32,313 nt of DNA, from NCBI GenBank assembly GCA_028823475.1, contig JAPKBI010000004.1, positions 1 to 32,313 of the forward strand, in the 5' to 3' direction. The position numbers were made by a program, and so were the translations under genes. Shown piece after piece: positions 13,708 through 29,804 of the stretch. The notes under the pieces were generated by a model. It did no database searches and was not told the origin of the DNA. It saw only the letters and a program-made list of their open reading frames with translations. The first letter of the stretch is position 1, and the number at the start of each line of letters is the position of its first letter. This DNA is from Halioglobus sp. (lineage in GTDB: Bacteria > Pseudomonadota > Gammaproteobacteria > Pseudomonadales > Halieaceae).

Positions 13708-14946
13708 ATGTTATCTCCCACTATTCTGATTGTCGGTACAGCTGATACCAAAGCAGACGAACTCCTATACCTGAAGAAATGCGTGGAGCGAGTCGGTGGT
13801 ACGGGTCGCATTATGGATGTTGGGGTGCTAGGCACCCCAGCCTTTGAACCGAACTATAGCAAGTTTGATGTGGCGATCGCTGCGGGGACAACGAACGAAG
13901 AGATTATCGCGCTCGGAGACGAGAATCGGGCGATGACCAAGCAAGCCGAAGGTGCCAGTAATTTGGCTCTGACACTTCAGCGCAAAGGCGAAATTAATGG
14001 CATGTTGGCCATAGGTGGTACCCTGGCGACAGATCTATCACTGGACGTTGCCTTGGCATTACCGCTGGGTTTTCCTAAGTGTATTGCTTCGACAGTGGCA
14101 TTTTCGCCGCTGTTACCACCACAACGAATGGCCCCGGATGTCATGATGGTACTGTGGGCTGGCGGTCTGTTTGGTTTAAATACAATCTGTAAATCTGTGT
14201 TGAGTCAGGCAGCCGGGGCCATCGTCGGCGCGTGCATGGCGCGGGAGGTTGAGCAAAAATCGCTACCGATTGTGGGCGTAAGCTCACTGGGAAGCAGTTC
14301 ACTCCGTTATATGCTAAAACTCAAACCTGCCCTAGAGCAGCGGGGATTTGAAGTGGCGGTATTTCATACCACTGGTATGGGAGGGCGAGCGCTGGAAGTA
14401 TTGGCTGCTAGTGGTGAGTTGGCCGCCGTTCTCGATTTCAGTCTGGTTGAGGTGAGTAATCATGAAAACGGTTCGGTAGTGAGTGCCGGCGAGGATCGCA
14501 TGGAAGCGGCCGTTTTAGCAAGGCTACCATTAATTGTTGCCCCTGGAGGCGTGAGCTTGATGGACTTCCAAACCTGGTCGCCGCCCGAGCAGAAGATCAA
14601 TGGCAGAGATATACTCACACACAATCGTCTCATCGCCTGTGTGCAATTGACCGTGGAAGAGAAAGTTCAGGCAGCTCGTACTATAGCGGCGAAGCTGGAT
14701 AAGGCAACCGGACCCTGCGCCTTTATTATACCCCTACATGGGATTGACGAATGGGACAGGGAGGGCGGCCCCTTCAATGATCCTGTTGGCCTTTCGGCCT
14801 TTTACGACACGCTTCGAGAAGGGCTGCACGATAACGTTGAGCTGATCGAAGTAGAAACGCATATCAATGACGATTTGTTTGTTGAAACAGCACTAGAAAT
14901 TTTTGATGACTGGCTTGCACAGGGTCTAATTTCCAGGGAAGTGTAA
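13708..14946 (+). CDS. UPF0261 / Tm-1-like ATP-binding protein
   Basis: A 412-residue protein beginning ILIVGTADTKADELLYL, the N-terminal signature of the UPF0261 family related to tomato Tm-1. The N-terminal half has a Gly-rich GGTLATDLS region, and the C-terminal half has FHTTGMGGRALE and LPLIVAPGG followed by an HGID motif. Members are usually encoded next to a TIM-barrel 'phosphoenolpyruvate hydrolase-like' gene; no such gene is present here. The biochemical role of the family is poorly defined. It starts 13 nt after the aminotransferase with GAGG upstream, so it is the last gene of the iclR operon. Confidence 0.88.
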   Translation: MLSPTILIVGTADTKADELLYLKKCVERVGGTGRIMDVGVLGTPAFEPNYSKFDVAIAAGTTNEEIIALGDENRAMTKQAEGASNLALTLQRKGEINGMLAIGGTLATDLSLDVALALPLGFPKCIASTVAFSPLLPPQRMAPDVMMVLWAGGLFGLNTICKSVLSQAAGAIVGACMAREVEQKSLPIVGVSSLGSSSLRYMLKLKPALEQRGFEVAVFHTTGMGGRALEVLAASGELAAVLDFSLVEVSNHENGSVVSAGEDRMEAAVLARLPLIVAPGGVSLMDFQTWSPPEQKINGRDILTHNRLIACVQLTVEEKVQAARTIAAKLDKATGPCAFIIPLHGIDEWDREGGPFNDPVGLSAFYDTLREGLHDNVELIEVETHINDDLFVETALEIFDDWLAQGLISREV

Positions 14947-15052
14947 CCTCCCTGCGGTATTTTAGGACCGCTAAATATACTGCAAACTCAAGCCCTTAAT
15001 TCATTTTTTGTATAAATGACTGTAAGTTTATTAGTATATGCGTTATTTTAAG

Positions 15053-15064
15053 TTAACATGTTAA
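15053..15064. promoter_or_regulatory. 12-bp perfect palindrome TTAACATGTTAA (candidate HpaR operator, copy 3)
   Basis: Exact copy, extended to 14 bp as GTTAACATGTTAAC (15052-15065). It lies 111 nt before the FAH-hpaR pair and so would give autoregulation of hpaR. A possible promoter TTGTAT (15008-15013), 18 nt, TAGTAT (15032-15037) is just upstream, with the palindrome near its start site. Confidence 0.7.
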
Positions 15065-15175
15065 CAGCATGGGTTGCGCGCTCATGGCAGCGCTTACTGG
15101 ATAGCCACTGGCGACTGAGGCAGGAGATTTTCCTCGTTCTGCGTTTTCAACCGAACAATCAATAAGAGATAAGTA

Positions 15176-16036
15176 ATGCGATTTTTAACTTTTGAACGAA
15201 ATGGCCAAGTATCCTGGGGCGTTATAACCGAAGAAGGCATCATTGACCTGGGGCTTCGGGTGGGCGGCGACTTACATTCGATCCTGAAAGACGACAGAGT
15301 TCAAGAGATGCAAACGCTGGCGGATGATATGCCTGCAGATTTTTCTGGCGATGATGTTCGTTTTCTTCCCCCGATCACCACGCCGGAAAAAATCGCCTGC
15401 GTTGGTGTCAACTACGCAAATCGTAATGCAGAATACAAGGATGGTTCAGAACAGCCGAAGTTTCCCAGTTTGTTTATGCGCACGCCAGATTCACTAACTG
15501 GCCATAATCAACCGTTGCTGCGTCCACCGGAAACACCGCAACTGGATTACGAAGGTGAAATCGTCATCATTATTGGTAAGGGCGGCAGACGCATCGCCGA
15601 GGAGGACGCTTACGACCATATTGGAGGGCTGAGCATAATGAACGAAGGTACATTACGCGATTGGGTGCGTCATGCAAAATTCAACGTGACCCAGGGCAAA
15701 AACTTTGTTCACTCAGGAGCCATCGGTCCGTGGATAGTCACCGCCGATGAATTCAGTCCTCAGCAACTGGAGAATATGCGGGTGACTACGCGGGTCAATG
15801 GCGAAGTTCGCCAAGACGATACCACGGCTAGCATGATGTTTCCCTTCCGCTATATCATAAGCTATTTCTCTACTTTCTTTCATCTTAAACCCGGTGATGT
15901 TATTGCCACGGGTACGCCGAATGGCGCTGGGGCCCGGTTTGATCCGCCAGTCTGGTTGATTCCAGGTGACGTTGTCGAGGTGGAGGTTGAAGGTGTTGGC
16001 TTACTGTCAAATGGTGTTATGGACGAGTTGGTATAA
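15176..16036 (+). CDS. hpaG: Fumarylacetoacetate hydrolase (FAH) family protein, candidate HpaG
   Basis: A 286-residue FAH-fold protein. After a variable N-terminal part it shows KIACVGVNYANR, the metal ligands of DYEGEIVIIIG (E-x-E) and a later Asp in NEGTLRDW, then TGTPNGAGA, the conserved C-terminal loop. In the hpa pathway HpaG decarboxylates oxopentenetricarboxylate and isomerises the product. E. coli HpaG is a fusion of two FAH domains (about 430 residues), whereas this is a single domain; its companion is absent or elsewhere. The gene overlaps hpaR by one base (TAATG) and has the palindrome upstream, which supports a role in this pathway. It could instead be a hydrolase for a different ring-cleavage product. 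Confidence 0.7.
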   Translation: MRFLTFERNGQVSWGVITEEGIIDLGLRVGGDLHSILKDDRVQEMQTLADDMPADFSGDDVRFLPPITTPEKIACVGVNYANRNAEYKDGSEQPKFPSLFMRTPDSLTGHNQPLLRPPETPQLDYEGEIVIIIGKGGRRIAEEDAYDHIGGLSIMNEGTLRDWVRHAKFNVTQGKNFVHSGAIGPWIVTADEFSPQQLENMRVTTRVNGEVRQDDTTASMMFPFRYIISYFSTFFHLKPGDVIATGTPNGAGARFDPPVWLIPGDVVEVEVEGVGLLSNGVMDELV

Positions 16037-16485
16037 TGGAAGATAAAAATCTTCGCGGATTTAAGTACTCTCTACCTATGTCTTTGCTGCGCGCGCGCGA
16101 AGCGGTGATGAAAAATTTCATACCTTCCTTACAGGAGCACAAACTCTCTGCGCCACAATGGCGTGTTATCCGGGCACTGCAGGAGGACAATGGTTTAGAT
16201 ATTTCTAAACTTTCAGTGCGCTGTTATTTGATGATGCCGAGCCTCTCCCGCATTATCAAAAATCTGGAGTCCCGCTCGCTAATAGAACGTACAACTAGCG
16301 ATAGGGACCAACGTGTTTCAATTATATCTCTCACGAAAGGCGGAAGGCAGCTGTATGAACTGGTTGCGCCAAAGTCGGTTGAACGATATGAGTACATCAC
16401 TAAAAAGTTTGGTTATGGCAAGCTGGAGCTCTTGTATGAATTACTAGCGGAGCTGGTAGAAAAAATTGATGAAGGTGACGAGTAA
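16036..16485 (+). CDS. hpaR: HpaR, MarR-family repressor of homoprotocatechuate degradation
   Basis: A 149-residue winged-HTH regulator. The N-terminus (SLLRAREAVMKNFIP, LSAPQWRVIRAL) matches E. coli HpaR closely in pattern, followed by the recognition region MMPSLSRIIKNLESRSLIERT and the wing with DRDQRVSIISLT. E. coli HpaR represses the hpa meta operon and is released by pathway compounds such as 4-hydroxyphenylacetate or homoprotocatechuate. The gene starts inside the stop of the FAH gene. It is the most likely ligand of the TTAACATGTTAA palindromes at four promoters in this window; this is inference from its family and location. Confidence 0.9.
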   Translation: MEDKNLRGFKYSLPMSLLRAREAVMKNFIPSLQEHKLSAPQWRVIRALQEDNGLDISKLSVRCYLMMPSLSRIIKNLESRSLIERTTSDRDQRVSIISLTKGGRQLYELVAPKSVERYEYITKKFGYGKLELLYELLAELVEKIDEGDE

Positions 16486-17514
16486 TCGCGGCTAGCCGTA
16501 ACAAACAGCAATTTGGTCACAGTAGTTATATTAGCGGAAAATGGCACAGCCCTAAAGCTCGCAGAATATTTCTGTACTCAATCTCGCTACCGCCGATACC
16601 ATCACCAAGGTGTCATTCTGAATAATAGAAGATGCCCTTAAGACCGTCCCGGCGGCTCAGATTGTGCTGCCTAGTTGACGGGGAGACGGGAATATTAGGA
16701 GGCTGGTTCGACTAGGTAATGCTACACCAGGATCATCTGCATTTAATATGTACTATCAACGATTCTGCTCGACTACGCGATGACCTTTGGAATAGCCGGG
16801 GTCTTCAGGTCAATCAAGTCTGGTGCACTGATCGGACTTATTTCTCGATGCGCAAGGCTTCCTGGCATCTGGAATTCCAGAAAGGTATTGTCTTGGCGAT
16901 GATTTAACTCTCTGGATGCCGCTCCTTGTATAGAGGCGCTGGAAGAATCGCTAGGAAGCTACGGCACACCTGAGATGTTCAATAGCGACTAGGGTTCTAT
17001 GTTTACCAGTGAAGATATCACGGATGTGCTTAAGCACAATGGCATCAAATTCAGTATGGACGGAAAGGGACGATGGAAGAATAATGTTTTTATTGAGCGC
17101 CTCTGGCTCAGGTTGAAATACGGGGAGGTTTAGCTCAAAGCCTACAACAGTGTCGCCTAGGCCAGGCAGGATATCGACGACTGGCTGACGCTTATCAATG
17201 GAGGCTAGCTTGTGTAGGATGATATCCATCCAAGTCTATTATGACCGGCCCTCAGGTCTAACGATTGCAACATGAAACAAACTTGAGGATCTCACTTATA
17301 AAGGCTGACTCACTGTGTCAGGGATAGGATCCACTTCACAATCCAAATTCTAGTAACCCTGGCCTCGGCAAGCGCGATTACTTATCTCGAGATTGTGCAA
17401 ATAATAACAGAGTAGAGCGTTCTCAGCCCAAACCGCTGAAAAGGTTCATTAGTAGATTAGGGCACTAAAACCTAACTCGGAAGGTATGATATGGGCATCT
17501 AAGGTGGGTCGTCA
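16486..17514. other. Non-coding stretch holding a decayed insertion sequence
   Basis: About 1030 bases between hpaR and hpaI. The middle (about 16719-17230) is a broken IS3-type transposase reading, described separately. The flanks (16486-16718 and 17231-17514) have no gene I recognise. No clear inverted-repeat ends of the element were found. Confidence 0.6.
16719..17230 (+). pseudogene. Decayed IS3-family OrfB transposase fragment
   Basis: The reading frame at 16719-16907 includes QVWCTDRTYFSMRK, which resembles the first catalytic Asp region of IS3 OrfB (WCTDITYIP). Another frame from about 16915 continues with ALEESLGSYGTPEMFNSD, stop, GSMF, then SMDGKGRW, NNVFIERLW and LKYGEV, stop, LKAYNSVA. 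These are the later DDE segments in the usual order. At least one frameshift and three in-frame stops break it, so it is inactive. The stop after NSD lies where Q is normal (CAG to TAG). It separates hpaR from the hpa meta operon. Confidence 0.85.
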
Positions 17515-18312
17515 CTAGTATCCGGCTTGTTCCAAATCTGATGTTATCTTTTTGAACTGGTTGGCCAGTTTCCGGGTTGCATTACTCAGTAGTGCGACAT
17601 CTACCCCCACACCGACAAAGCACGCTCCTTTTTCCACGTAGTGTCGCACGAGTGATTGATCTACCGCCAAAATGCCGACCGCTTTACCTGCGGCGAGAAT
17701 GGTCTTAAATCCGCTTTCAATGGCGGAAATCACATCGGGGTGCTCTGGATTTCCGATATGACCCATTGACGCAGATAAGTCAGAGGGCCCGAAAAATATC
17801 CCATCGATGCCGTCCACCGCCGCGATCTCATCAAGATTTTGCAGCGCAATTGTTGTTTCTACCTGTACGAGTAGGCAGATTTCTTCGTTGGCTCTGTGTA
17901 AATAATTGTCTACGCGATTCCAGCGCGCGGCCCGGGACATCGATGTCCCCAGCCCCCGAATTCCATCGGGGGGGTATAGCACATCCTGGACAAGTTGTTT
18001 AGCCTGTTCAGCGGTATCTACCATGGGTACCAGCAGTGTTTGCGCCCCAATATCCAGTAGTTGTTTAAGTAGAGCGGTACGCCCCTCGGCGGGGCGAACA
18101 ATGGCGGGCACGTTATATGGGGCGATGGCCTGAAGATGATTATGTACATCACGCACACTGTAAGGTGCGTGCTCAGCATCGACTAATACCCAGTCAAAGC
18201 CCGCGCTGGCACCGATTTCGGCACAAATGGTGTCGGGCAGGCCCATCCACAATCCGTACTGCGGCTGGTCGCTCTTTAAAGCCTGCTTAAAGTAATTTAT
18301 GGGTAGGTCCAT
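17515..18312 (-). CDS. hpaI: HpaI, 2,4-dihydroxyhept-2-ene-1,7-dioate aldolase
   Basis: A 265-residue class II aldolase of the HpcH/HpaI family, 265 residues against about 262 in E. coli. It catalyses retro-aldol cleavage of the C7 intermediate to pyruvate and succinate semialdehyde, the last step of the pathway. Motifs include YGLWMGLPD, the acid-base His in VDAEHAPYS, the metal ligands in LVQVET and FFGPSDLSASMG, and the substrate Arg region GIRGLGTSMSRAARWN. It starts 53 nt after hpaH with AAGGT upstream and ends the operon. Confidence 0.95.
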   Translation of the reverse strand: MDLPINYFKQALKSDQPQYGLWMGLPDTICAEIGASAGFDWVLVDAEHAPYSVRDVHNHLQAIAPYNVPAIVRPAEGRTALLKQLLDIGAQTLLVPMVDTAEQAKQLVQDVLYPPDGIRGLGTSMSRAARWNRVDNYLHRANEEICLLVQVETTIALQNLDEIAAVDGIDGIFFGPSDLSASMGHIGNPEHPDVISAIESGFKTILAAGKAVGILAVDQSLVRHYVEKGACFVGVGVDVALLSNATRKLANQFKKITSDLEQAGY

Positions 18313-18365
18313 GCTAGTTTACCTTGCTGAAAAGTGTTGCCGCTAAGGAAGCTTAGTTGCGCGAA

Positions 18366-19169
18366 CTAAACGAAGTGACAGGAAATTCCGCCCAACGGAC
18401 CATAGTCGGCGTGAACAGTGTCGCCGGCCTTGACGATGATGGGCCTGATAAATGAGCCGGACAATATAACCTGACCGGGCTCCAACGCGATGCCGTGTGG
18501 TGCGAATCGTTTGGCCACCCAGCATATCCCATTGGCAGGGTGGTTCAGAACACCGGCAGCCAAACCGGTCTCTTCCAATACTCCGTTGACATAGCAGAGC
18601 GCACCACACCATCGTAAGTCCATTTCTTGCGGCCTGATCGGGCGGCCACCCATAACGATGCCAGCGTTGGCGGCATTGTCGGCGATGGTATCGAAAATCT
18701 TACGTGTGTATCCGGTTTCCGGGTGAACCCGGTGGCTGCGCGCTGAGATCAGTTCCAGCGCCGGAACTACATAGTCAGTGGCGTTGAGCACATCGAACAT
18801 AGTGACATGTTCACCCTCAAGGCGGTCTTTCAGGACGAAGGCAAGTTCTACTTCTATTCGTGGATCACTGAAGCGGGCCGTCTCGATATCAGCGCCATCC
18901 TCGAACACCATGTCATCCAGGAGCACACCGTAATCTGGTTGATCGATCTTCATGGTATTTTGCATGGCGCGGGATGTGAGTCCAATCTTATAGCCGATCA
19001 CCCGCCGGCCATCGGATACTTTTCGGTCAACCCATTGTTTTTGAATAGCATAGGCCTCATCCATCGTCATGTTTGGATGGGTGAGCGTAATCGGGTCGAT
19101 CTGCCGCCTGTCGATTTCTGCCTGGTGGAGATCGCTCGCGGCTTTGTTAATATCAGTATCACTTAACAT
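18366..19169 (-). CDS. hpaH: HpaH, 2-oxohept-4-ene-1,7-dioate hydratase
   Basis: A 267-residue hydratase of the HpaH/MhpD group (FAH-like fold), full length for the family. It adds water to 2-oxohept-4-enedioate in the homoprotocatechuate pathway. Recognised segments are [34 protein letters not shown] and the Mg-binding E-x-E of [11 protein letters not shown], with [10 protein letters not shown] and a late [10 protein letters not shown]. The order hpaE-D-F-H-I matches known hpa operons. The spacing is 33 nt from hpaF. Confidence 0.95.
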
Positions 19170-19202
19170 AGTGTATGGCCTTTTTATGAATCCCTGCCCT
19201 GG

Positions 19203-19583
19203 CTATGGGAGATAGTCGCGGAGGTTGTTTTTATTGTACTTCAGTATGGTGGGTAATTCCGACATTTCGAAGGAGATCGCCAGCCCCTGTCGATCAGATA
19301 GCGGTTGCAAAACGGCACTCATGGCCTTGAAGATACTGCCAGCAGCCTCTTTTTTCGCCTCTTCTGATCGGCCTACACCGATTTTTATTTGTAGATGTAA
19401 GAAGCCGAAATTAGGGTTTCCGTCGGCGATTCGAAAGTGTTCGCATCGGTGGGCGCGGCAGCGAATTCCTGCCAGCGGAAACAACTCGGTCTCCACAGCC
19501 GCTTCGCTGAGTGTCTTAAGAAGCTCAGGAATATCAATAGACTCATCCAGATTAGCAGAGTATTCCAATATAAAGTGGGGCAT
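19203..19583 (-). CDS. hpaF: HpaF, 5-carboxymethyl-2-hydroxymuconate delta-isomerase
   Basis: A 126-residue protein, the normal size for this tautomerase-fold enzyme. Pro1 of the mature protein follows the start Met (MPHFILEYSANL) and is the catalytic base in the tautomerase superfamily. It isomerises 5-carboxymethyl-2-hydroxymuconate to the oxo form. The GGAGG ribosome site precedes the ATG, and 12 nt separate it from hpaD upstream. Confidence 0.94.
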   Translation of the reverse strand: MPHFILEYSANLDESIDIPELLKTLSEAAVETELFPLAGIRCRAHRCEHFRIADGNPNFGFLHLQIKIGVGRSEEAKKEAAGSIFKAMSAVLQPLSDRQGLAISFEMSELPTILKYNKNNLRDYLP

Positions 19584-19595
19584 CAGTGGTCCTCC

Positions 19596-20447
19596 TTAGC
19601 TTACTGGAAAGATAGCATTTATCTGGCCGGTGCCCGAACTACCGAAATAGGGTGTGACAACCTCTACTTTGCCCTGATATTTATCCCACCCGAGGCAGCC
19701 CAGTAGCATGGCTGTGTCATGCATGAATCCCTCGCCATGGCATTTATCCGCATACTCTGGCAACAGGGCTGTAAAGGTGTCCCATTCCCCGTTCTCCCAC
19801 ATCTTCACGACGCTCTCGTCCATTGCCTGTAAAAAGGGCGACCAGACCTTAAATGAGTACTGGTCTGTGACGCCGTTCTGAGCGAAGCGATGAGACAGTG
19901 AGCCAGAGGCGAATACGGCAACGTTCCCGTCGTAGTTTTCCTCGACGGCCTTGCGTACCGACTGCCCCAGCACTGCACTGCATTCCAAATCGTGCACTGT
20001 GCATAGAGCAGAGATAGAGATAATTTTGAAAGCGCGATCCTCGTTCATGTAGCGCATGGGGACGAGAGTTCCATATTCCAACGGAAGGGTAGTGTCGGAG
20101 TGCGCTCTGGTGTGTACGCCCGCTTTGGTGGCTGCCTGAGCGATACTCTCGCCTAGCTCTGGATTGCCGTCGTATTCGTAGTCCATATTTTTAATGAAAT
20201 GGGGCAGTTCGTTGCTGGTGTAACAGCCCTTGAAGTGCGCCGCATTATTAATGTGGTAGCCAGAATTCACCAGCCAGTGGGTGTCGAAGACCACGATTGT
20301 ATCAACATTTAGCTCGCGGCAGCGCCGGGAAATTTCCTTGTGCCCTTTAATTGCAGCTTCACGACAACCCTTATTCGGGCCGTCTAACTCGGAAAGGTAC
20401 ATAGATGGTACGTGGGTTATTTTTGCTGCTAAAGCGATGTTGCCCAT
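19596..20447 (-). CDS. hpaD: HpaD, 3,4-dihydroxyphenylacetate 2,3-dioxygenase
   Basis: A 283-residue class III extradiol dioxygenase that matches E. coli HpaD/HpcB in pattern along its whole length. Segments include AAKITHVPSM at the N-terminus, FDTHWLVNSGYHI, TSNELPHFI, YGTLVPMRYMNED and FASGSLSHRF; the histidines in THVPSM, FDTHW and SLSHRF are candidate iron or catalytic residues. It opens homoprotocatechuate between carbons 2 and 3, giving 5-carboxymethyl-2-hydroxymuconate semialdehyde. AAGGAG lies upstream of the ATG. It sits between hpaE and hpaF as in other hpa operons. Confidence 0.96.
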   Translation of the reverse strand: MGNIALAAKITHVPSMYLSELDGPNKGCREAAIKGHKEISRRCRELNVDTIVVFDTHWLVNSGYHINNAAHFKGCYTSNELPHFIKNMDYEYDGNPELGESIAQAATKAGVHTRAHSDTTLPLEYGTLVPMRYMNEDRAFKIISISALCTVHDLECSAVLGQSVRKAVEENYDGNVAVFASGSLSHRFAQNGVTDQYSFKVWSPFLQAMDESVVKMWENGEWDTFTALLPEYADKCHGEGFMHDTAMLLGCLGWDKYQGKVEVVTPYFGSSGTGQINAIFPVS

Positions 20448-20483
20448 AATGAATCTCCTTAATGTGAAATTGTGACTGTATGG

Positions 20484-22001
20484 CTAGCGCCCTAAAAGCG
20501 GGATCTTGTGAGTGCCGTGAGCAATACAGACATTCTTTGTTTCCATGTAGAAGTCGAAACTGAAATCGCCGCCATCGCGGCCGATTCCGGACATTTTGAC
20601 GCCACCAAACGGCGAGGGGAGGTTGCGATTATTCTCTGAGTTTATCCACAGCATGCCAGATTCTACTTGTCTGGCCATACGCATTGCGCGCCCTGTGTTC
20701 TCTGTCCAGATATAGCCGGCCAAGCCGTAGATTGTATCGTTCGCAATATCAATGGCTTGCTCTTCGGTGTCGAAGGATATAACGGTAAGAACCGGGCCAA
20801 AAATCTCTTCCTGGGCAATGCGCATGTTGTTTGTAGCCTGGGTGAAAAGCGTAGGGGTTATATAGTTTCCGGCTCCTAAATCTTCTCTGCGCTCACCTCC
20901 CACAGCAATGGTCGCCCCCTCTTCTCGAGCAATATCCATATAGCTCATCACCTTTTTATAGTGGCCCGTATGGACAAGTGGGCCCACCTCGGTGTCCGGA
21001 TCGAGCGGATGGCCAACTCGCAGGTTCTTTACCCGTTGCTGTAGGGCATCGATGAATTTTTGTTTAATACCACTTTGTATCAATAAGCGACTCGACGAAG
21101 TACAGCGCTGGCCATTGAGGCTGTAGATCATAAATACGACGGCATCCAGGGCACGATCGAAGTCGGCGTCGTCAAACACGATCACCGGGTTCTTGCCGCC
21201 CAGCTCAAAGTGTACGCGTTTTAATGTCTCCGCTCCCTGGCGCATAATATGGCTGCCAGTTGCTCCTTCACCCACCAACCCCACAGCTTTTATTGCAGGG
21301 TGTTCAGTGAGCCGTTTTCCGGCTTCTTCTCCGAATCCATTGATGGTGTTCCAAACCCCGTCGGGTAACCCTGCCTCTTTGGTAATATTAGCCAATAGCA
21401 TTGCGCTCAAAGGCGTCAGCTCAGCAGGCTTGTGCACAACGGTGCAGCCAGCAGCCAGTGCTGGAGCAATTTTCCAGGTGGCGAGCATGAAAGGCGTGTT
21501 CCAGGGGGTAATAATTCCCACGGGGCCAATTGGGCTGCGAATGGTGTAGTTAGTGTGTTCTTTCTGATGGAGGGACAAACCATTTTGCGCTTCAGGAGCT
21601 TTGTCAGCAAAGAAGCGAAAGTTTGCTGCACCGCGGATTGCGGCTTGTTTCATGAAGCGAATAGGTTGGCCGCAGTCCATGGACTCCACCAGTGCAATTT
21701 CGTCGGCATGCTGAACAATTTTATCGGCAAATTGATTCAATATTTTCTTCCGTTCGGCACCGGGGAGGTCACGCCAATCGGCGAATGCGGCTTCTGCGGC
21801 TTCACAAGCTAGGTCCACATCTGCGGCTGTCCCTGTTACCACGGCACCCAAAGAGCTGTTATCGACTGGAGTTGTGTTGTCATAGGTGACAGCTCCCGCG
21901 GGCAACACTACTCGGCCATTAATGAAATGCCCCGTGGTCTTGGCTTTGAACGGTTGCAGATACTGATTAGCCCTGCTTATGTTTTCTGAAAATTCGGACA
22001 T
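20484..22001 (-). CDS. hpaE: HpaE, 5-carboxymethyl-2-hydroxymuconate semialdehyde dehydrogenase
   Basis: A 505-residue aldehyde dehydrogenase. It shows ITPWNTPFML, KPAELTPLSA, the base Glu in FELGGKNPV and the nucleophile Cys in LNGQRCTSSSR, then EEIFGPVLT and the C-terminal PFGGVKMSGIGRDGG. The ATG at 22001 is chosen over a TTG at 22013 because GGAGG is 5 nt upstream. It oxidises the ring-cleavage product to 5-carboxymethyl-2-hydroxymuconate. It is the first gene of hpaE-D-F-H-I; a candidate promoter and the palindrome variant are directly upstream, so the operon is probably repressed by HpaR. Confidence 0.95.
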   Translation of the reverse strand: MSEFSENISRANQYLQPFKAKTTGHFINGRVVLPAGAVTYDNTTPVDNSSLGAVVTGTAADVDLACEAAEAAFADWRDLPGAERKKILNQFADKIVQHADEIALVESMDCGQPIRFMKQAAIRGAANFRFFADKAPEAQNGLSLHQKEHTNYTIRSPIGPVGIITPWNTPFMLATWKIAPALAAGCTVVHKPAELTPLSAMLLANITKEAGLPDGVWNTINGFGEEAGKRLTEHPAIKAVGLVGEGATGSHIMRQGAETLKRVHFELGGKNPVIVFDDADFDRALDAVVFMIYSLNGQRCTSSSRLLIQSGIKQKFIDALQQRVKNLRVGHPLDPDTEVGPLVHTGHYKKVMSYMDIAREEGATIAVGGERREDLGAGNYITPTLFTQATNNMRIAQEEIFGPVLTVISFDTEEQAIDIANDTIYGLAGYIWTENTGRAMRMARQVESGMLWINSENNRNLPSPFGGVKMSGIGRDGGDFSFDFYMETKNVCIAHGTHKIPLLGR

Positions 22002-22031
22002 GAGCGCCTCCAAGGATTGAATAAAAAGAAT

Positions 22032-22043
22032 ATAACATGTTAA
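22032..22043. promoter_or_regulatory. Palindrome variant ATAACATGTTAA (candidate HpaR operator, copy 4)
   Basis: One base differs from the three exact copies; the core TAACATGTTA (22033-22042) is intact. It lies 31 nt before the hpaE start and directly beside the candidate -10 at 22048-22053, so it would cover the transcription start. Confidence 0.65.
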
Positions 22044-22047
22044 CTAA

Positions 22048-22075
22048 AATATAAGCAAGACAATATCACGGCCAA
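22048..22075 (-). promoter_or_regulatory. Candidate sigma-70 promoter of the hpaE operon
   Basis: On the minus strand TTGGCC (22070-22075) is followed by 16 nt and TATATT (22048-22053), matching 4 of 6 and 5 of 6 consensus bases. The palindrome begins 4 nt downstream of the -10, a typical repressor position. Confidence 0.5.
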
Positions 22076-22257
22076 AAAGATGCTGCCTTACGAGCTTAGG
22101 AGCACCCAAGGTGTAACGCTTACTTCGATGTAAATGATTTTAATGCTGACTACACGGGAGCTCGATACACTGCCTGGTTGTACGCTGCGGGAGTGTGTCG
22201 CCTAAGGGAGCATTACACTGAAGACATCTCCGCAGGGTATTTAACACGCACGGAGGG

Positions 22258-23358
22258 TTACTCATATTCGAGGTGCGCGCTGGCAGTTTCGGGATCGCAG
22301 TTTGCGGCGGGAAATTCACGTTTATCGGTGAGGTTGTAGACACCGTGTATGGAAAAAGGTCTCTCCAGATATACCGGGTCCTCTACCAGTGCTTCTACAA
22401 ACATTCTGGTGCCGCCCAGTTTCCTGCCGTTGGTCAGCGTGTAGCGCTCCGTCAGCCTCTTTTGGGTGCTTGAATCTAGTCCATAATCTATACCCCAGCG
22501 AGTGGCCGGAAACCCGGTAGTTTCAACAATCAGGCTGCCAAACTCGTCAAATCGACCGCTGGAAAAACCTACCGGGTTGGATTTGTAGTCAGCCGGCTTT
22601 TTACGGCCATCAAGCCATATAACACGACGCTCGGTTTCCTTGCCTTCTGTTTGAACTACGATGCGATCCCCATGGCGAGTCCAGTTGCGGGCATACACAT
22701 CGAAGATGATTTGCGGTGCTCCGTATTCCTGGCAGGTAAATGCGGGGTCATCTTTAGAATCATAGGCCGCGTAATTTTCTTGTCCTTTCTGTGACAGTGG
22801 CCATGGGTGGGTTAAGCCCATGCCCAAGACGAGGATTTCATCCAGAGTCAGGTAGTATTCCCAAGTACCGCTGAAATCCTTGGAAGTGGTTACACCGTAT
22901 TCGCCGAACACATTTGTCTTTTCTTTGCTGGTAGCATCGCTTTCTGCGGCCACCACAGGCGCTGGGGTTTCTTCACCCCCAACGGGCGGAAGAGAGGTAC
23001 CGTTGGAGAGAATTATCCGATTGTACAAACCCGATTTTTTCCCCGGGGGGCGCTGGGCATTTTTACGGTTGGGGAATACCTTAAACGTGACTTCGTCGCC
23101 GATTTTAACGGTATCTTCCATCCACCCGTTTTTGACCAGGTCGACGATAGCAGAGCCATCGAAGGCCCAGATTTCATTGACGCCTTGTTCATTAATTACT
23201 TCAAGAACGTACCTGACGTGTGGATTCCTCCATCGCATGGCCTTCACTGTGCCTTTGACGCTGATCTCGGTATCAAGGTCGTAGGCGGTGCGGGAGTGGT
23301 GAGCCTGGATGGTTGCCAGCGGGAGTAGCAAAAGTAGTAGTAGGAAGTGCTTGAGCAT
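22258..23358 (-). CDS. DUF6152-family secreted protein, paralog A
   Basis: A 366-residue exported protein with a 19-residue signal peptide ending TIQA. The predicted mature form begins HHSRTAYDLD. The N-terminal DUF6152 domain (about 110 residues) contains ISVKGTV, then WRNPH with its His at mature position 28, and ends near ILSNGTSLPP. An acidic, Ala-rich linker leads to a second domain with HWPLS-like, IWLDGRKKPAD, VETTGF and YTLTNG segments, and the C-terminus SAHLEYE. The function of the family is unknown. It is a tandem duplicate of the gene at 23458-24555, 99 nt away. The exposed His pair is discussed as a finding. GAGG precedes the ATG. Confidence 0.85.
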   Translation of the reverse strand: MLKHFLLLLLLLPLATIQAHHSRTAYDLDTEISVKGTVKAMRWRNPHVRYVLEVINEQGVNEIWAFDGSAIVDLVKNGWMEDTVKIGDEVTFKVFPNRKNAQRPPGKKSGLYNRIILSNGTSLPPVGGEETPAPVVAAESDATSKEKTNVFGEYGVTTSKDFSGTWEYYLTLDEILVLGMGLTHPWPLSQKGQENYAAYDSKDDPAFTCQEYGAPQIIFDVYARNWTRHGDRIVVQTEGKETERRVIWLDGRKKPADYKSNPVGFSSGRFDEFGSLIVETTGFPATRWGIDYGLDSSTQKRLTERYTLTNGRKLGGTRMFVEALVEDPVYLERPFSIHGVYNLTDKREFPAANCDPETASAHLEYE

Positions 23359-23457
23359 AATAAACCTCGCGTTAAATTTTTTATTGCAGGCCTGTGACGG
23401 GAGCTTGAGCGTGGGGCAAACCCAGTGGGCCGTTTACTTCAGTACGAGTAGATCCGT

Positions 23458-24555
23458 CTATTCGTACTCCAGGTGAGCACTAGATGCCTCTGGATCACAA
23501 CTAAACGGCACGTATTGGTGCGCAGGCGCGAGATCGTAGGCGCCCCAGGTCTTGACTGGCGTACTCAGGTATACCGAGTCTTCTACCACCATTTCGAAAA
23601 CCATACGGGTATGCCCGGTGAGTGGGCTGCCGTTAGTCAGGTTATAACGGACAACGACACGTTTCTGAGCGCTAGAATCAAGCCCGATAATGTTGCCCCA
23701 TGGAGTGGAGGCATAGCCCGTAGTTTCTACTATTAGGGTACCATTTTCGTCGATGGTGCCTGTGGAGAAACCGATATCGGAGGGCACAAAGTCAGCGGGC
23801 TTTTTCCTGCCGTCCAGCCAGATAGTGCGACTTTGGTTTTCGGCTGACATCTCGGTTTCCACTTCAATCCTGTTTTCAAACCGTACCCAGTTGCGCGCCC
23901 AGACCCAGAAGACAAGCCGTGGATGGCCAAAATTAATACACTTATAGAACGGATCGTCCTTAAGAACAAAGTTGTTGACTTGATCTTGCCCTTTGGCAGA
24001 AAGGGGCCAGTGTCGCGGTGGATCAAAGCCGCCAGTTTTACCCTCTTCATTGTTGACGAAAAAATGCCAATTGCCACTAAAATCATGGGTGCCGGGAGTA
24101 TTCATGATTTTGTCACTGTACTCACTCTCTCGCTCGGCTTCCTCATCACCCTCGACCTTAGGTGCATCTTCTGCCGGATTCGCATCCAGTACATTGCCAT
24201 CGGCCTGAATGATGCGCAGCAGTAAGCCCGATTGTTTCTCAGGTGTCCGCGAGACGTTCTTGTTGTTCGGATTGCCGATCATGGTTACCGCGTCGCCAAC
24301 CTGCACTGTATCTTTTCTCCAGCCGACTTTAACATAGGCAGAAACTGCAAAGCCCTCGAATTGCCAATTTTCCTTAACACCCTGCGCATTGACGGACTCA
24401 ATTTTGTAGTAAGGGTGTGGATTTCTCCATAGCACTTTGGTCACAGTACCTTTGACAGATATTTCCTGATCTGAGTTATAAGGGGCTCTGGAATGGTGGG
24501 CTAGCGCCATACTCGAGAACAGAAAAATGCATAGTATGACTATTAATCGTTGCAT
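23458..24555 (-). CDS. DUF6152-family secreted protein, paralog B
   Basis: A 365-residue exported protein, clearly paralogous to the neighbour at 22258-23358 along its whole length. The signal peptide ends MALA at residue 19, and the mature form starts HHSRAPYNSD. WRNPH places a His at mature position 28. The second domain shows HWPLSAKGQD, IWLDGRKKPAD, VETTGYA and YNLTNG, with the identical end SAHLEYE. AGGA lies before the ATG. It is the first gene of the pair, 240 nt from the stop of the IclR gene at 24796. The role is unknown; periplasmic location is likely. Confidence 0.85.
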   Translation of the reverse strand: MQRLIVILCIFLFSSMALAHHSRAPYNSDQEISVKGTVTKVLWRNPHPYYKIESVNAQGVKENWQFEGFAVSAYVKVGWRKDTVQVGDAVTMIGNPNNKNVSRTPEKQSGLLLRIIQADGNVLDANPAEDAPKVEGDEEAERESEYSDKIMNTPGTHDFSGNWHFFVNNEEGKTGGFDPPRHWPLSAKGQDQVNNFVLKDDPFYKCINFGHPRLVFWVWARNWVRFENRIEVETEMSAENQSRTIWLDGRKKPADFVPSDIGFSTGTIDENGTLIVETTGYASTPWGNIIGLDSSAQKRVVVRYNLTNGSPLTGHTRMVFEMVVEDSVYLSTPVKTWGAYDLAPAHQYVPFSCDPEASSAHLEYE

Positions 24556-24795
24556 GATAGTTCCTACTGGTTATTGTCTATATCGCCAAGGGTGTTGCAG
24601 AGGCGAACGACACCAGTGTATGCGTCATTGTCGACAAAGAAAACATCCCCGATCAATTATTTTCGCATCATAACTTGGGACGAAGGGGTTCAGGCAGCCA
24701 TATATTAAATCGTTCCGTGATGCGAGACATTGCCGGCCAGTAGTTTTAACGTATTGAATTTAATCTAAACGGATTGGGCCGTAGGGCTATCGAGT

Positions 24796-25584
24796 TTACG
24801 TGGCCGAGTGTTCAGTGAGGGCTATCATTCTGTCCATGGAATCGACTATTTCACCGGCAGATTTTCGCAGTAACGCCAGATACTCCTTGGCCACCGTATC
24901 GTTAAAACAACTGGAGAAAACGGAGAGGCCTATAACGCCGATGACCTGATGGTCACTTTTAATAGGGATGGCCATATGAGTGGATTCACCACGTTTTCCA
25001 ACCCGTAAGCCGTAGCCTCGATCTTTCACCTCGGCTATGTAGCGCTTTATTTTAGAATCGCTCTCAAGAATGCAGTCCTCCTGAAATTCCTCGTCACGAA
25101 GCGCTTGAAGAATGATCTGTAACTGGGTTTCTTCACAGAAACCTAAATACGCTTGTCCCATAGCGGTTTTAAATAAGTTAAATCGCTTATTAACAGTGGA
25201 ACCCTGCATTACAAACTCTGAGTAAGGGCGGGTAGAATATTGAACAACAATGGTGTTGTAATCGAATATACCGATAGCGACGGGCCACTTAACCTCTTGG
25301 GTTATTCTTCTTGCCACCGGTGTGCCGACCTGTAGTAACCATGCCTCTTTACCGTAGCCTGAAGACAGTGACAGCACCTGATCTGTGAGCATATAGACAC
25401 TGCGATCAATATCTTTCCCCACATACCCGCAACTTATCAGTGTAGCGAGTATGCGGTGTACGGTGGGCTTGGGCAGTCCGGTCACCCGGTGGAGGTCGCT
25501 AATTGTAGACAGTCTATGCTGGTTCATCGCACTCATGATTGACAGCGCTCTGGCAATTGGTTCAATCACATCGGGTGAGGGCAT
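24796..25584 (-). CDS. IclR-family transcriptional regulator
   Basis: A 262-residue IclR protein. The winged HTH (about residues 1-70) shows IARALSIMSAM, STISDLHRVTGLPKPTVHRILATL; the effector domain follows, with MGQAYLGF and a Cys in the VFSSCF region. It is divergent from the third DUF6152 gene and the MhpB-type operon, and a perfect inverted repeat (25634-25650) lies between them. The start at 25584 has no good ribosome site, so a start within the first 20 residues is possible. It likely controls the operon at 25882-30638; the effector is unknown. Confidence 0.9.
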   Translation of the reverse strand: MPSPDVIEPIARALSIMSAMNQHRLSTISDLHRVTGLPKPTVHRILATLISCGYVGKDIDRSVYMLTDQVLSLSSGYGKEAWLLQVGTPVARRITQEVKWPVAIGIFDYNTIVVQYSTRPYSEFVMQGSTVNKRFNLFKTAMGQAYLGFCEETQLQIILQALRDEEFQEDCILESDSKIKRYIAEVKDRGYGLRVGKRGESTHMAIPIKSDHQVIGVIGLSVFSSCFNDTVAKEYLALLRKSAGEIVDSMDRMIALTEHSAT

Positions 25585-25881
25585 GGGGAAGGGGTTCTCG
25601 GTAGATAGTTAGTTAGGAAGGCCCTGTGCGTAAGGTTGAATAGTTCAACCAGTATAAAAAAAAATTTCTCAATATGGTACGCTTTTGTGATGTTTTTTAC
25701 TCGAACAGCCTGTTTTTTTGCTCAAATTTAGAAGCGATAACTGGTTGAACGAGTGAAGTAGCCCGAGAAATTGCGGGTTTATTATTCCGCAAGACGAAAC
25801 CCGAGGCTCGAATCATATATCCTTTATTAAACGGTGTGATTAAATGCCTGAGTAGTAGATGAACTTAGCCGGAGAGTATTT
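25585..25881. promoter_or_regulatory. Divergent regulatory region between iclR and DUF6152 paralog C
   Basis: About 297 AT-rich bases with the inverted repeat at 25634-25650 and a half-site at 25743-25750. No gene is seen. It should hold the promoters for both directions, but I cannot assign hexamers with confidence. Confidence 0.5.
25634..25650. promoter_or_regulatory. Inverted repeat GGTTGAA-TAG-TTCAACC, candidate IclR operator
   Basis: Perfect 7-bp inverted repeat with a 3-nt spacer, 50 nt upstream of the IclR start and between divergent genes. A further GGTTGAAC half-site lies at 25743-25750. IclR regulators often bind such repeats in divergent regions. The repeat is seen; the binder is inferred. 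Confidence 0.55.
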
Positions 25882-27114
25882 ATGAAAACCACAACCCATG
25901 TGCTCACTTTTATGTGGTTGCTTGCAATTACTCTTTCAACGCATGCACACCATTCGGCAGTCGTATTCGATTTCGATAAAAGCATCAGTGTTACAGGTAC
26001 CGTTACTCGGCTGTTATGGCGTAGCCCTCATGTCGCCATTAACTTGGAGCTGGTCAATGAAGCGGGAGAAACTGAGATTTGGAAGTTGGAATCTTATGCT
26101 ATTAATGCACTGGTTGAGCGGGGCTGGAAAAAAACCGACGTCAAAAAAAGTGAGATTATTACCGCACAGATCAATCCGCTGAAAAATGGCAAGCCTGGAG
26201 GCGTATTGCAGTGGGTAACTTTAGCAGACGGACGAGTACTGCCGATTCACAAGGATTCACCGAACGGGAATAAGGCGATTAAGGTCAATGTCAGCACCCA
26301 GAGTACGCTATACGTCAGCACGGAGTCAGCCGAAGACGCAGCGGTGCGCCGTAAGGCTGTCCTGGAGCGGGAGAAAAAATGGCGACCAGCCACGCTGCCG
26401 CTGATGAATAATGTCGGTGGCCCGGGCGCGCTGGATCCAGAGGCACTCATCAAGAAGCGCTCGGCAGCACCTTTTGACATGACAGGTGTTTGGGAGTTCC
26501 GCGCCGAAGATGAGCGGGCAGACAAGTACGGTGTTAATCCCTGGGATTTCTATCCTATCCCTAAGCTTACGCCAAAAGCACAGGCCACTTTGGACGAATA
26601 CCGCGCGGTGATAGCGCAGGGTAAGCGTGGTATGGATCCACATGCACGCTGTTATCCGCCGGGGCAGCCAGCACTGATGACTCGATTCGGGGCCTTTATG
26701 GCAATTCAGTTGCCCACCGCGGTCTATATTGTCCACCGTTTTAATAACAGCTTCAGGACTATTTTCCTCGATGGCCGCGGTCATGTTAATGAAGATATTC
26801 GTCAGGAAACCTATAATGGTGATGCCACCGGTCGGTGGGATGGCGATGCTCTCAATGTGGACTTAGTGGGCTTTGGCTCGCCAGAGCACTGGATTATGGA
26901 TGGCATTCAGGTTAGCGAGCAATTTCGGATGACGGAGCATATCAGAATGTTGAATGAGGGCAGCACGTTAATGATTGAGATGACATTTGTTGACTCGGAG
27001 AACTGGGTGGGTGAATGGAAGCACACTAAATTCTATGACCGTCTGTTGAACATGGATATCGAAGAGGCGACCTGTATTGCCGAACTTGATAATTCGGCAT
27101 TACCAGGAATGTGA
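25882..27114 (+). CDS. DUF6152-family secreted protein, paralog C
   Basis: A 410-residue exported protein. The 22-residue signal peptide ends STHA and the mature form begins HHSAVVFDFD. The N-terminal domain keeps the spacing seen in paralogs A and B: His1-His2-Ser3, Asp10, Trp24-Arg25, Pro27-His28 (WRSPH). The second domain is diverged and longer, with HARCYPPGQPALM, IFLDGRGH and TGRWDGDAL, so C is not part of the recent A/B duplication. It precedes the FAH-MhpB operon on the same strand, 232 nt before the FAH start, and may be co-regulated by the divergent IclR. GGAGAG lies upstream of the ATG. Function unknown. Confidence 0.85.
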   Translation: MKTTTHVLTFMWLLAITLSTHAHHSAVVFDFDKSISVTGTVTRLLWRSPHVAINLELVNEAGETEIWKLESYAINALVERGWKKTDVKKSEIITAQINPLKNGKPGGVLQWVTLADGRVLPIHKDSPNGNKAIKVNVSTQSTLYVSTESAEDAAVRRKAVLEREKKWRPATLPLMNNVGGPGALDPEALIKKRSAAPFDMTGVWEFRAEDERADKYGVNPWDFYPIPKLTPKAQATLDEYRAVIAQGKRGMDPHARCYPPGQPALMTRFGAFMAIQLPTAVYIVHRFNNSFRTIFLDGRGHVNEDIRQETYNGDATGRWDGDALNVDLVGFGSPEHWIMDGIQVSEQFRMTEHIRMLNEGSTLMIEMTFVDSENWVGEWKHTKFYDRLLNMDIEEATCIAELDNSALPGM

Positions 27115-27346
27115 TTACCTGGTCCGTCAATCGATCGACGCTTTTGTTGTCATTGAATCCTTTATTTGTTGTGAGAAGTAACAGTTGAAAGATAGACTCG
27201 GTGGTGCCAAGTCCAACGCACAAAAAAGAATACTCTAGTCTTTTATGTTTCGTAAAGTGGAATGGGAATGTGTGTTTGTTGTGAGTTCAGAGCATTTGGA
27301 GGAAGATTTAGAAATCGTTAATTAAATAACTTATTAGGGCTCTATT

Positions 27347-28351
27347 GTGAAACTGGCAAGTATTTCATATCAAGGAATTGATCGAATTGTTGCGGCAATA
27401 GACGAACAACGTGTGGTGGACATCGTCGCAGCATTTGCCGCAGCATTCGATGATCGTGTCAGTGCTCCGGGTGATATGCTCGAGCTGCTACAAGGGGGAG
27501 AAGAAGTCTTGGCTCAGGTCTCGGAGGCGGTCGACGCAGTGCGAAAATCCCCAGATACCGTGGAGATGATTTTCCAGTCCGATGTATACTGGCACGCTCC
27601 GATTCGCAATCCAGGCAAGGTTTGCGGTATCGCGATGAATAACTCCGCCAGTAACAGTCGCAAGATCAGAGCACCAGAGCACCCCGCCTTTTTTCTGAAG
27701 CCAGCCTCGTGCCTGATTGGTCATAAAGAACCTATCGTCATCAGAAAATACTATGGCAGCGTACACCCCGAACCAGAGCTTGCGGTAATCATAGGTAAAG
27801 AGATGCGTGACGTGCCTGCAGTTGATGCGATAAATTATGTTGCTGGTTATACTATCATGAACGACTTGACTGGGAATGACATGCGTGCGGAAGACCTATT
27901 TCAGTATTGGGCTATCTACGCCAAAGAAGATAATCCCAATGAGACGAATCGAGTCGAGCAGCACCTCTCGTATGCGGGTCGTTATAAGGGTTGTGATACG
28001 TTTGGCATATTGGGCCCCTGGTTAGTTACTCGGGAGGAGATTTCAAACCCGGATGATCTCGCCGTTGAGTGTAGTGTAGGGGACGAAATGATCGCCGAGG
28101 ATAGTACGCGATATTACAATTATAAAGTGGCTGAAATACTCAGTTTTATTAATCAGTTTCACACTCTGTACCCTGGCGACGTGGTGTCATGCGGTACGGC
28201 ATTCAAACCTGTGAAAAACCAGAAATCTATTCACTGTGCTAATTTCCAACAGGTTCCTGGACCAGTGTCAGTATCCATTGAAGGTCTCGGTATTCAGGAG
28301 AATCCTGTTATAGTTGAGGACAGAGTGATAGGTGAATGGCGGTTGAATTAG
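27347..28351 (+). CDS. FAH-family hydrolase or decarboxylase of a ring-cleavage product
   Basis: A 334-residue FAH-fold protein with a GTG start and AGGG upstream. After an N-terminal extension of about 100 residues come KVCGIAMNN, PEPELAVIIGKE (metal E-x-E) and NDLTGNDM with a further Asp ligand, then the VSCGTAF loop. Its stop overlaps the NTF2-like gene by 16 nt. In an operon with an MhpB-type dioxygenase it may cleave the C-C bond of the meta-cleavage product, a step that in the E. coli mhp pathway is done by the unrelated alpha/beta hydrolase MhpC, which is absent here. The exact reaction is unproven. Confidence 0.83.
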   Translation: MKLASISYQGIDRIVAAIDEQRVVDIVAAFAAAFDDRVSAPGDMLELLQGGEEVLAQVSEAVDAVRKSPDTVEMIFQSDVYWHAPIRNPGKVCGIAMNNSASNSRKIRAPEHPAFFLKPASCLIGHKEPIVIRKYYGSVHPEPELAVIIGKEMRDVPAVDAINYVAGYTIMNDLTGNDMRAEDLFQYWAIYAKEDNPNETNRVEQHLSYAGRYKGCDTFGILGPWLVTREEISNPDDLAVECSVGDEMIAEDSTRYYNYKVAEILSFINQFHTLYPGDVVSCGTAFKPVKNQKSIHCANFQQVPGPVSVSIEGLGIQENPVIVEDRVIGEWRLN

Positions 28352-28809
28352 AGGCCCTTGCCCGCCTTGAAGCTCGGCTGGCAATTGAAGATTTAAACAC
28401 GCATTTTTGTCATTACCTTGACCACAACAAGGTCGATCTGCTGGTGGGTCTTTTTACCGCCGAGGCATACTACGCACACGGCAGTCGGGTGTCTGTTGGG
28501 GTTGAGAAGATTCGCAGTTTGTTTGATGCTCGTTTGAGTGCGGGTGTACGAACGGCGCGGCATATGTATAGTGGCCTTAAAGTTGAGCTAGTAGCGGCGG
28601 ATCGAGCACGAGGCACGAGTGTCTGTATGACTTTCGCGCAGAATGCTGCTCCGCCGATCACCTCGGCAGTACCGTATCTGGTAGCGGATTTTTTTGACGA
28701 ATATGTGCGCGAGGACGATGGTTGCTGGCGCATAGCAAAACGGCGTATAGAACGCATTTTTATTGACCCTTCAAACAAAGGCCCAGTTGGACAAACGAAC
28801 AAGGGCTAG
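28336..28809 (+). CDS. NTF2/SnoaL-like protein
   Basis: A 157-residue protein of the cone-shaped NTF2-like fold: helical start (LEARLAIEDLNTHFCHYLDHN), FTAEAYYAHGS, then TARHMYSGLKVE and a strand-rich end with YVREDDGCWRIAKRRI. The pattern fits SnoaL_4-type members that include small isomerases and dehydratases, as well as the small subunits of ring-hydroxylating dioxygenases. Its ATG lies within the FAH gene end, showing translational coupling, and the MhpB-like gene follows after 35 nt. It may be an isomerase for the meta pathway; no catalytic residue is certain. Confidence 0.75.
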   Translation: MAVELEALARLEARLAIEDLNTHFCHYLDHNKVDLLVGLFTAEAYYAHGSRVSVGVEKIRSLFDARLSAGVRTARHMYSGLKVELVAADRARGTSVCMTFAQNAAPPITSAVPYLVADFFDEYVREDDGCWRIAKRRIERIFIDPSNKGPVGQTNKG

Positions 28810-28844
28810 GCCTGCGATGGAGTACTTTTTGGCAGGAGATTGCA

Positions 28845-29804
28845 ATGAACACAGTTCTGGTGTGTGCTTCGCACAGTCCACTTTTACATTGTTATAGTAA
28901 GGAACCCGAGAGCTGGCAGGCGCTCCAGGAAGCCTACATCAAAACTGCTACAGTGATTAGGACATTTGATCCGGAACTTGTGATCGCATTTGGCTCGGAT
29001 CACTTTAATGGCTTCTTTCTGAAGATGATGCCGGCTTTCTGTGTGGGGGCTAAAGCTGAAGCGGCTGGCGACATTGGGGGCTATCCTGGTCCTCTGAATG
29101 TACCTCAGGATATTGCATTCAGTGTTGTAGAGTTTCTACGGGACAATGATATTGATCCCGCGATTTCGTATCAGATGACGATCGATCACGCTTTTTCCCA
29201 GACGATTGTTGATATGTTGGGTGGCCTTGATAAACGGCCTGTCATACCCGTATTCATAAACTGTATCACGACACCATTCGTTCCTTTTAAGCGAAGTAGA
29301 TTAATGGGAGAAGCAATTGGTCGATTTACCCAAACTCTTAACAAGCGTGTTTTGTTATTGGGGTCTGGCGGTATGTCACATCATCCCACTCGATACTATC
29401 CCGCTTATGGTGAAGGGGGAGAAAAGGTTCAGGCCTGGCAGCTCTCCGGTGGCGATGATCCATCTTCATTGACGCGGCCAGAATGGTTGGAGCGACTGGA
29501 GGTAATGCATCACGAAGGGGCCGATATGATAGCGCGAGGGGAGCGTACAGCAAAAGATATGCGCTTGAATGCAGAGTCTGATCGAGCTTTCCTTGATACT
29601 CTGGTATCTGGTGGACTTGAGGCTTTCGACACCTGGGACCAGTATAAACTGGTAGAAGAAGCGGGGATTGGTTCTATGGAATTACATACTTGGATTGCTG
29701 CCGCTGCTGCGCATAAAGCTGCTGGCGGATCAAATCCGGTGGTAGATATTTACACCATGGCCCCAGAGATCGGTATCGCGGCTGGTATTGTTCATGCCCT
29801 TTGA
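28845..29804 (+). CDS. MhpB-like class III extradiol dioxygenase
   Basis: A 319-residue protein similar in length and motif order to E. coli MhpB (2,3-dihydroxyphenylpropionate 1,2-dioxygenase, 314 residues). Shared segments are CASHSPL, PELVIAFGSDHFNGFF, the IDHAFSQ region, LGGLDKRPVIPVFIN, GEAIGRFTQTLNKRVLLLGSGGMSHH and ELHTWIAA. The histidines of SHSPL, SDHFNGFF and GGMSHH correspond to iron or catalytic positions. A substrate of the type 2,3-dihydroxyphenylpropionate is likely by family, but the flanking genes differ from the mhp operon, so another alkyl-catechol is possible. AGGAG lies upstream of the ATG. Confidence 0.92.
   Translation: MNTVLVCASHSPLLHCYSKEPESWQALQEAYIKTATVIRTFDPELVIAFGSDHFNGFFLKMMPAFCVGAKAEAAGDIGGYPGPLNVPQDIAFSVVEFLRDNDIDPAISYQMTIDHAFSQTIVDMLGGLDKRPVIPVFINCITTPFVPFKRSRLMGEAIGRFTQTLNKRVLLLGSGGMSHHPTRYYPAYGEGGEKVQAWQLSGGDDPSSLTRPEWLERLEVMHHEGADMIARGERTAKDMRLNAESDRAFLDTLVSGGLEAFDTWDQYKLVEEAGIGSMELHTWIAAAAAHKAAGGSNPVVDIYTMAPEIGIAAGIVHAL

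Follow-up and report, generated by a model that had tools for sequence, protein, structure and literature searches.

A stretch of 32,313 nucleotides from Halioglobus sp. (positions 1 to 32,313 of contig JAPKBI010000004.1, GenBank assembly GCA_028823475.1; hereafter the window) encodes three proteins of the DUF6152 family, paralogs A, B and C, in the neighbourhood of ring-cleavage genes (Table 1). All of them exceed the cut-off of the PF19649 (DUF6152) profile (27 bits), with scores of 76.9, 78.4 and 82.5 bits for A, B and C, respectively. The profile scan of A, B and C returned no other Pfam match, the C-terminal domain belonging to no Pfam family. They share one layout: behind a predicted signal peptide ending in Ala come His-His-Ser (HHS), the DUF6152 domain (about 105 residues) and, past a linker, a C-terminal domain of some 200 residues. 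Identity is 46% between A and B and 27% between A and C, and the tree places the three in a single well-supported clade together with counterparts from two metagenome-assembled genomes (MAGs) that bear the names Porticoccaceae (L074) and Cellvibrionales (L075). An earlier note on this DNA had predicted signal peptide cleavage directly before HHS in each protein; Ala precedes HH in all three. The alignment also confirmed the identity of H1, H2, S3, D10, W24, R25, P27 and H28 across the paralogs, counted from the predicted mature N-terminus.

Invariant histidines of the DUF6152 family

DUF6152 domains were gathered from whole genomes, plasmids and named MAGs, all of Pseudomonadota. Search models were built solely from the region after the PH motif in order to lessen circularity, and the residues preceding each match were then inspected; most loci had first been fetched with the Pfam profile, which spans the N-terminus. 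This core-only count was used instead of an earlier collection based on regular expressions, which was biased toward HH..PH. Among 101 distinct domains, 100 carry HH directly after A (88), G (10) or S (2), and the same 100 contain PH, with its His at position 28 (40), 29 (33), 27 (26) or 25 (1). The sole exception is a domain truncated where its fetched locus ends, and two attributes of a histidine brace, a predicted His at the mature N-terminus and a second conserved His, are found in 100 of 100 complete domains. The conservation of H1, H2 and H28 among homologs, which the earlier note had put forward as a check, thus extends from three proteins to the sampled family, and the original observation is correct and even understated. 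As an independent check, a core-only alignment was run against 399 genomes and returned the places found by the Pfam search plus marginal matches in two 865-aa frames (E 2e-4); no credible member lacking HH or PH was found there. The invariant set comprises H1, H2, P27 and H28, followed by N26 at 83%, and little else is invariant. D10, W24 and R25 are not family-wide features (W24 52%, R25 13%). An anticorrelation between W4 and W24 (47 and 38 vs 5 and 10) was considered as spatial evidence and dropped, because it tracks one deep split of the tree.

Such an N-terminus is more frequent in the family than chance would give. In the same loci, His occupies position +1 in 5 of 130 other predicted secreted proteins, and HH occurs in 0 of 130; the rate of His at +1 in secreted proteins given in a published survey is 2.6% (PMC12537917). 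The signal-peptide predictor was a crude one, which placed the site before HH in 19 of 27 DUF6152 proteins and served the background rate, not proof. A search of 5.39 million papers found none naming DUF6152 or DUF6644 and no experiment on the DUF6152 family, and no phage or viral copies were seen among loci matched by peptide or DNA patterns.

Predicted fold and the DUF6644 membrane partner

No solved structure of the family was found by sequence. Mature A was modelled with AlphaFold2 using 12 sequences, and the model was compared with known structures by Foldseek. Its DUF6152 domain is predicted to consist of strands at 13-24, 28-36 and 42-51, a helix at 52-57, and strands at 70-78 and 89-98, that is, a five-stranded barrel with a helix between strands 3 and 4, the arrangement of an oligonucleotide/oligosaccharide-binding fold (OB-fold). 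Over residues 11-100 the predicted local distance difference test (pLDDT) ranges from 68 to 91 per ten-residue block and is mostly >80. Foldseek assigned a probability of 1.00 to OB-fold proteins, the best matches being the anticodon-binding domain of lysyl-tRNA synthetase (LysRS), PriB and SSB. H28 is the opening residue of strand 2 in the model, at the beta1-beta2 turn. The earlier note had set the proteins beside lytic polysaccharide monooxygenases (LPMOs), CopC and YcnI. This kinship was not borne out; membership in any of these families was rejected, since neither a CopC nor an LPMO profile matched and the prediction gives an OB-fold instead of a beta-sandwich. Given the unlike fold, any histidine brace in DUF6152 would be convergent, of independent origin.

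The C-terminal domain of A, B and C is encoded either as part of a DUF6152 protein or as a secreted protein of its own nearby; it is present in 41 proteins from 25 loci, some of which overlap. Its model (pLDDT 70.6; predicted template modelling score 0.73) is best matched by apo shwanavidin, a weak match (E 0.039, probability 0.92), and with low confidence the domain may be a ligand-binding barrel. Stand-alone secreted barrel proteins without a Pfam family were also observed beside short DUF6152 genes, at three loci listed in Table 1 and at others.

The most telling new evidence comes from gene order. A recurrent companion of the family is DUF6644, whose members are multi-pass membrane proteins in which a His, a Lys, a Trp and a Gly-Arg are invariant. 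In the fetched loci, 33 of 35 DUF6152 genes of the HHGW type have a DUF6644 gene on the same strand within 200 bp, typically at 1-20 bp. Across the 399 genomes DUF6644 was detected in 29 and DUF6152 in 42, and all 29 genomes with DUF6644 also hold DUF6152 (hypergeometric P ~2e-34, which is optimistic because the genomes are related). Besides, explicitly annotated DUF6152-DUF6644 pairs are present on three plasmids, from Caballeronia, Azospirillum and Comamonas, and at locus L036 a single fused protein has the order DUF6152-barrel-DUF6644. DUF6644 is itself related to CopD, although remotely. One member scored 36.1 bits with the CopD profile (cut-off 32.1), and three of 37 matched at E<0.01. 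The profile-profile score between the two families was 29.0, compared with a maximum of 23.4 in 149 block-shuffled controls, 15.2 for the reversed control and 12.7 for HupE_UreJ_2 as an unrelated membrane control, and the membrane His and Lys of DUF6644 co-align with those of CopD in this alignment.

Genomic context

Table 1. Features of the window (bare coordinates) and of related loci (coordinates with an L prefix).
Feature	Position	Strand	Basis or remark
Paralog A, 366 aa; DUF6152 + C-terminal barrel	22258..23358	-	signal peptide 1-19; predicted mature start HHSRTAYD
A, His1-His2 codons	23296..23301	-	sequence; right behind predicted signal-peptidase site TIQA^HH
A, Pro27-His28 codons	23218..23223	-	turn joining strands 1 and 2 of predicted OB-fold
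A, C-terminal GxW domain	22261..22878	-	weakly resembles calycin-like (streptavidin-type) barrels; no Pfam family
Paralog B, 365 aa; architecture as in A	23458..24555	-	signal peptide 1-19
B, His1-His2 codons	24493..24498	-	sequence; behind ALA^HH
B, Pro27-His28 codons	24415..24420	-	
Paralog C, 410 aa; diverged, architecture as in A	25882..27114	+	signal peptide 1-22
C, His1-His2 codons	25948..25953	+	sequence; behind THA^HH
C, Pro27-His28 codons	26026..26031	+	
Separate Aldedh-matching gene	9352-10842		profile match
LigB-type ring-opening dioxygenase	19596..20447	-	
Aldehyde dehydrogenase-like gene of the catabolic cluster	20484..22013	-	downstream of A; family by eye
IclR-type regulator	24796..25584	-	between B and C; probable local regulator
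FAA hydrolase family protein	27347..28351	+	downstream of C
SnoaL-like protein	28336..28809	+	
Second LigB-type ring-opening dioxygenase	28845..29804	+	
HupE_UreJ_2 permease	L054:494-1405	+	
HupE_UreJ_2 permease	L077:11499-12155	+	
HupE_UreJ_2 permease	L152:9144-9887	-	
HupE_UreJ_2 permease	L153 about 9124-9810	-	
Small membrane-anchored protein	L054:1413-2069	+	no Pfam family
Small membrane-anchored protein	L152:8584-9279	-	no Pfam family
Small membrane-anchored protein	L153 about 8558-9178	-	no Pfam family
Stand-alone secreted barrel protein	L152:4880-5710		no Pfam family
Stand-alone secreted barrel protein	L076:8339-9094		no Pfam family
Stand-alone secreted barrel protein	L054:4556-5386		no Pfam family

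The genome of the window, a MAG that is 75% complete, contains nine DUF6152 matches. One of its contigs (C262) has a short DUF6152 gene with two DUF6644 genes after it. Another contig, C521, carries at 6779-19101 a duplicate of window positions 17502-29802 (12.3 kb, 94% identity) that includes A, B, C and the ring-cleavage genes; its flanks differ from those of the window, and the copy may represent either a real duplication or a strain mixture. Beyond this copy, C521 holds two DUF6152 genes, a LigB-like gene (assigned by eye), a membrane-anchored protein, a DUF6644 gene and a HupE_UreJ_2 gene whose product has a predicted N-terminal His. CopC (PF04234) and CopD (PF05425) gave no match in this genome, which is only about 75% complete.

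Similar arrangements were observed elsewhere. In the four HupE_UreJ_2 permeases of Table 1, which are encoded near DUF6152 or DUF6644 genes, the predicted signal peptide is immediately followed by His (AHN, AHG, GHD, AHD), and a small membrane-anchored protein accompanies them at three loci. HHS-type copies of DUF6152 in group f64 and in other groups have TonB receptors, pyrroloquinoline quinone (PQQ) dehydrogenases and an RPE65-type oxygenase among their neighbours; two f64 genomes, G208 and G180, hold 7-8 DUF6152 copies each. The earlier note had also tied the family to ring cleavage. The link is real at this locus and its relatives, whereas it is not the general context of DUF6152, most members of which adjoin DUF6644, TonB receptors or PQQ dehydrogenases.

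A candidate copper module and its alternatives

We consider it slightly better than an even bet that DUF6152 is a secreted OB-fold domain binding a metal, probably copper, which forms a CopC/CopD-like module with DUF6644 and of which the window copies are specialised versions. In all members, signal peptidase I would expose His1, as judged from sequence. One metal ion, most likely Cu(II), may then be held by the N-terminal amine, the His1 imidazole and His28 in the beta1-beta2 turn, in a histidine-brace-like site with His2 nearby. The commonest form of DUF6152 would partner DUF6644, the remote CopD relative with invariant membrane His and Lys, and would capture periplasmic metal and pass it on to DUF6644, as CopC does to CopD in YcnJ. 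A, B and C would be specialised DUF6152 proteins whose fused C-terminal domain is a calycin-like barrel, probably for ligand binding, which relatives encode in a gene of its own nearby; these proteins most likely capture a metal or a metal-ligand complex for the ring-cleavage programme, although this step is the least certain. The interpretation given in the earlier note is supported in part: its metal-site idea is strengthened, because the predicted N-terminal His and the second His are invariant across the sampled family and the partner is homologous to CopD, whereas the kinship with LPMO, CopC and YcnI did not hold. The window's genome, which gave no CopC or CopD match but encodes DUF6152, DUF6644 and a HupE_UreJ_2 product predicted to start with His, also counts in favour of the module.

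The proposed pair resembles CopC/CopD and YcnJ, in which a secreted protein with an N-terminal His is partnered with or fused to a CopD-type multi-pass membrane protein with an essential His (PMC13344008). When copper is limiting, Bacillus subtilis YcnJ requires both the Cu(II) site in its CopC domain and a His in its CopD domain (PMC13344008). Unlike CopC, DUF6152 is predicted to adopt an OB-fold and has no CopC profile match, and DUF6644 is remote from CopD and constitutes its own Pfam family. A second comparison is offered by signal-strapped N-terminal-His proteins (DUF4198, DUF6702 and the anglerases Ang-1 and Ang-2), in which signal peptidase likewise exposes a conserved His; anglerases are HupE_UreJ_2 proteins carrying an N-terminal-His domain, and these domains bind Cu(II) in vitro (PMC12537917). 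A HupE_UreJ_2 protein with a predicted N-terminal His shares a gene cluster with DUF6152 in the window's genome. DUF4198, DUF6702 and Ang-1 are beta-sandwich folds, in contrast to the predicted OB-fold of DUF6152. DUF6152 was not encountered in the passages of the survey considered here, and HH proteins may have been passed over in that survey because candidates with a second ligand at position 2 were rejected (PMC12537917). LPMOs and YcnI (DUF1775) resemble DUF6152 in combining an N-terminal His with another conserved residue that could bind copper; they differ in predicted fold and profile, and there is no evidence of polysaccharide oxidation for DUF6152. From general knowledge, the proposed role also recalls CusF, a small periplasmic OB-fold copper chaperone, which binds Cu(I) through internal His, Met and Trp, not through an N-terminal His. 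CusF was absent among the 50 structural matches listed by Foldseek for the DUF6152 model.

Several points weigh against the copper module. The pLDDT of model residues 1-3, among them H1, is <50. No DUF6644 gene adjoins A, B or C within the window, and known copper genes are not among the most frequent neighbour families of DUF6152. Several genomes hold 4-9 DUF6152 copies, which would be more in keeping with a role tied to substrates than with a housekeeping importer and indicates that at least some of the copies are not the latter. DUF2214 matches 14 of 37 DUF6644 members and CopD only three; DUF6644 is therefore best called a remote CopD relative, and may be a sister family whose function differs from that of CopD.

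A rival reading takes the N-terminal-His site for that of a redox enzyme, namely a mononuclear copper oxidase, oxygenase or peroxygenase; the fused barrel of A, B and C would bind an aromatic substrate, to be activated by the copper site before uptake and ring cleavage. Several paralogs do share catabolic clusters with genes for LigB, FAA hydrolase and aldehyde dehydrogenase, the barrel is fused or adjacent to DUF6152 at the 25 loci mentioned above, and genes for PQQ dehydrogenase, TonB receptor, RPE65 and GMC oxidoreductase occur near HHS-type members. Nevertheless, DUF6152 occurs most widely as a small protein of one domain whose sole partner is a CopD-like membrane protein, as is typical of carriers, and transport or sequestration is the role described for characterised non-LPMO N-terminal-His families (PMC12537917, PMC10952591). 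An enzymatic role is thus regarded as unlikely. Just as improbable, in our view, is a true N-terminal-His site for nickel, zinc or cobalt instead of copper. DUF4198, likewise an N-terminal-His protein, prefers Ni(II), and the survey presents HupE_UreJ_2 as a family of nickel permeases (PMC12537917); a HupE_UreJ_2 gene lies in the same gene cluster of the window's genome. However, the partner DUF6644 resembles CopD and not a nickel transporter, and an N-terminal His normally favours Cu(II), following the Irving-Williams order.

A role without metal, in which the histidines serve processing, contact with the DUF6644 protein or binding of an organic ligand, would fit the finding that the literature search yielded no experiment on the family; it is quite improbable, since the exact invariance of two N-terminal His and a distant Pro-His over long branches, together with a CopD-like partner, is hard to explain otherwise. 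Least probable is a haem or electron-transfer module, in which DUF6644 would be a membrane protein with b-type haem, akin to CopD, HemJ and DUF2214, and the histidines of DUF6152 would be haem ligands, as in CcmE, a haem chaperone with an OB-fold: the predicted OB-fold, the DUF2214 matches, one DUF6644 member weakly matching UPF0093 (which we take to be HemJ) and cytochrome c'-like and PQQ dehydrogenase-like genes near some members are in line with it, whereas no recognised haem motif is present in DUF6152 and haem binding leaves the His at the exact mature N-terminus unexplained.

The copper module can also be stated in a stronger form, which is put forward only tentatively. DUF6152-DUF6644 might be a new and widespread CopC/CopD-like copper module with an independent histidine brace on an OB-fold, and the fusions in the window might couple this copper site to a ligand-binding barrel for the periplasmic handling or oxidation of aromatics or of copper-ligand complexes. 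If the copper-module reading is right, copper would be handled by a module built on a fold that is not used by the N-terminal-His copper proteins compared here, the histidine brace would have arisen independently on another scaffold, and two families of unassigned function, DUF6152 and DUF6644, would gain a role together. DUF6152 is therefore proposed as a candidate, open to experimental test, for a new type of copper handler on a different fold.

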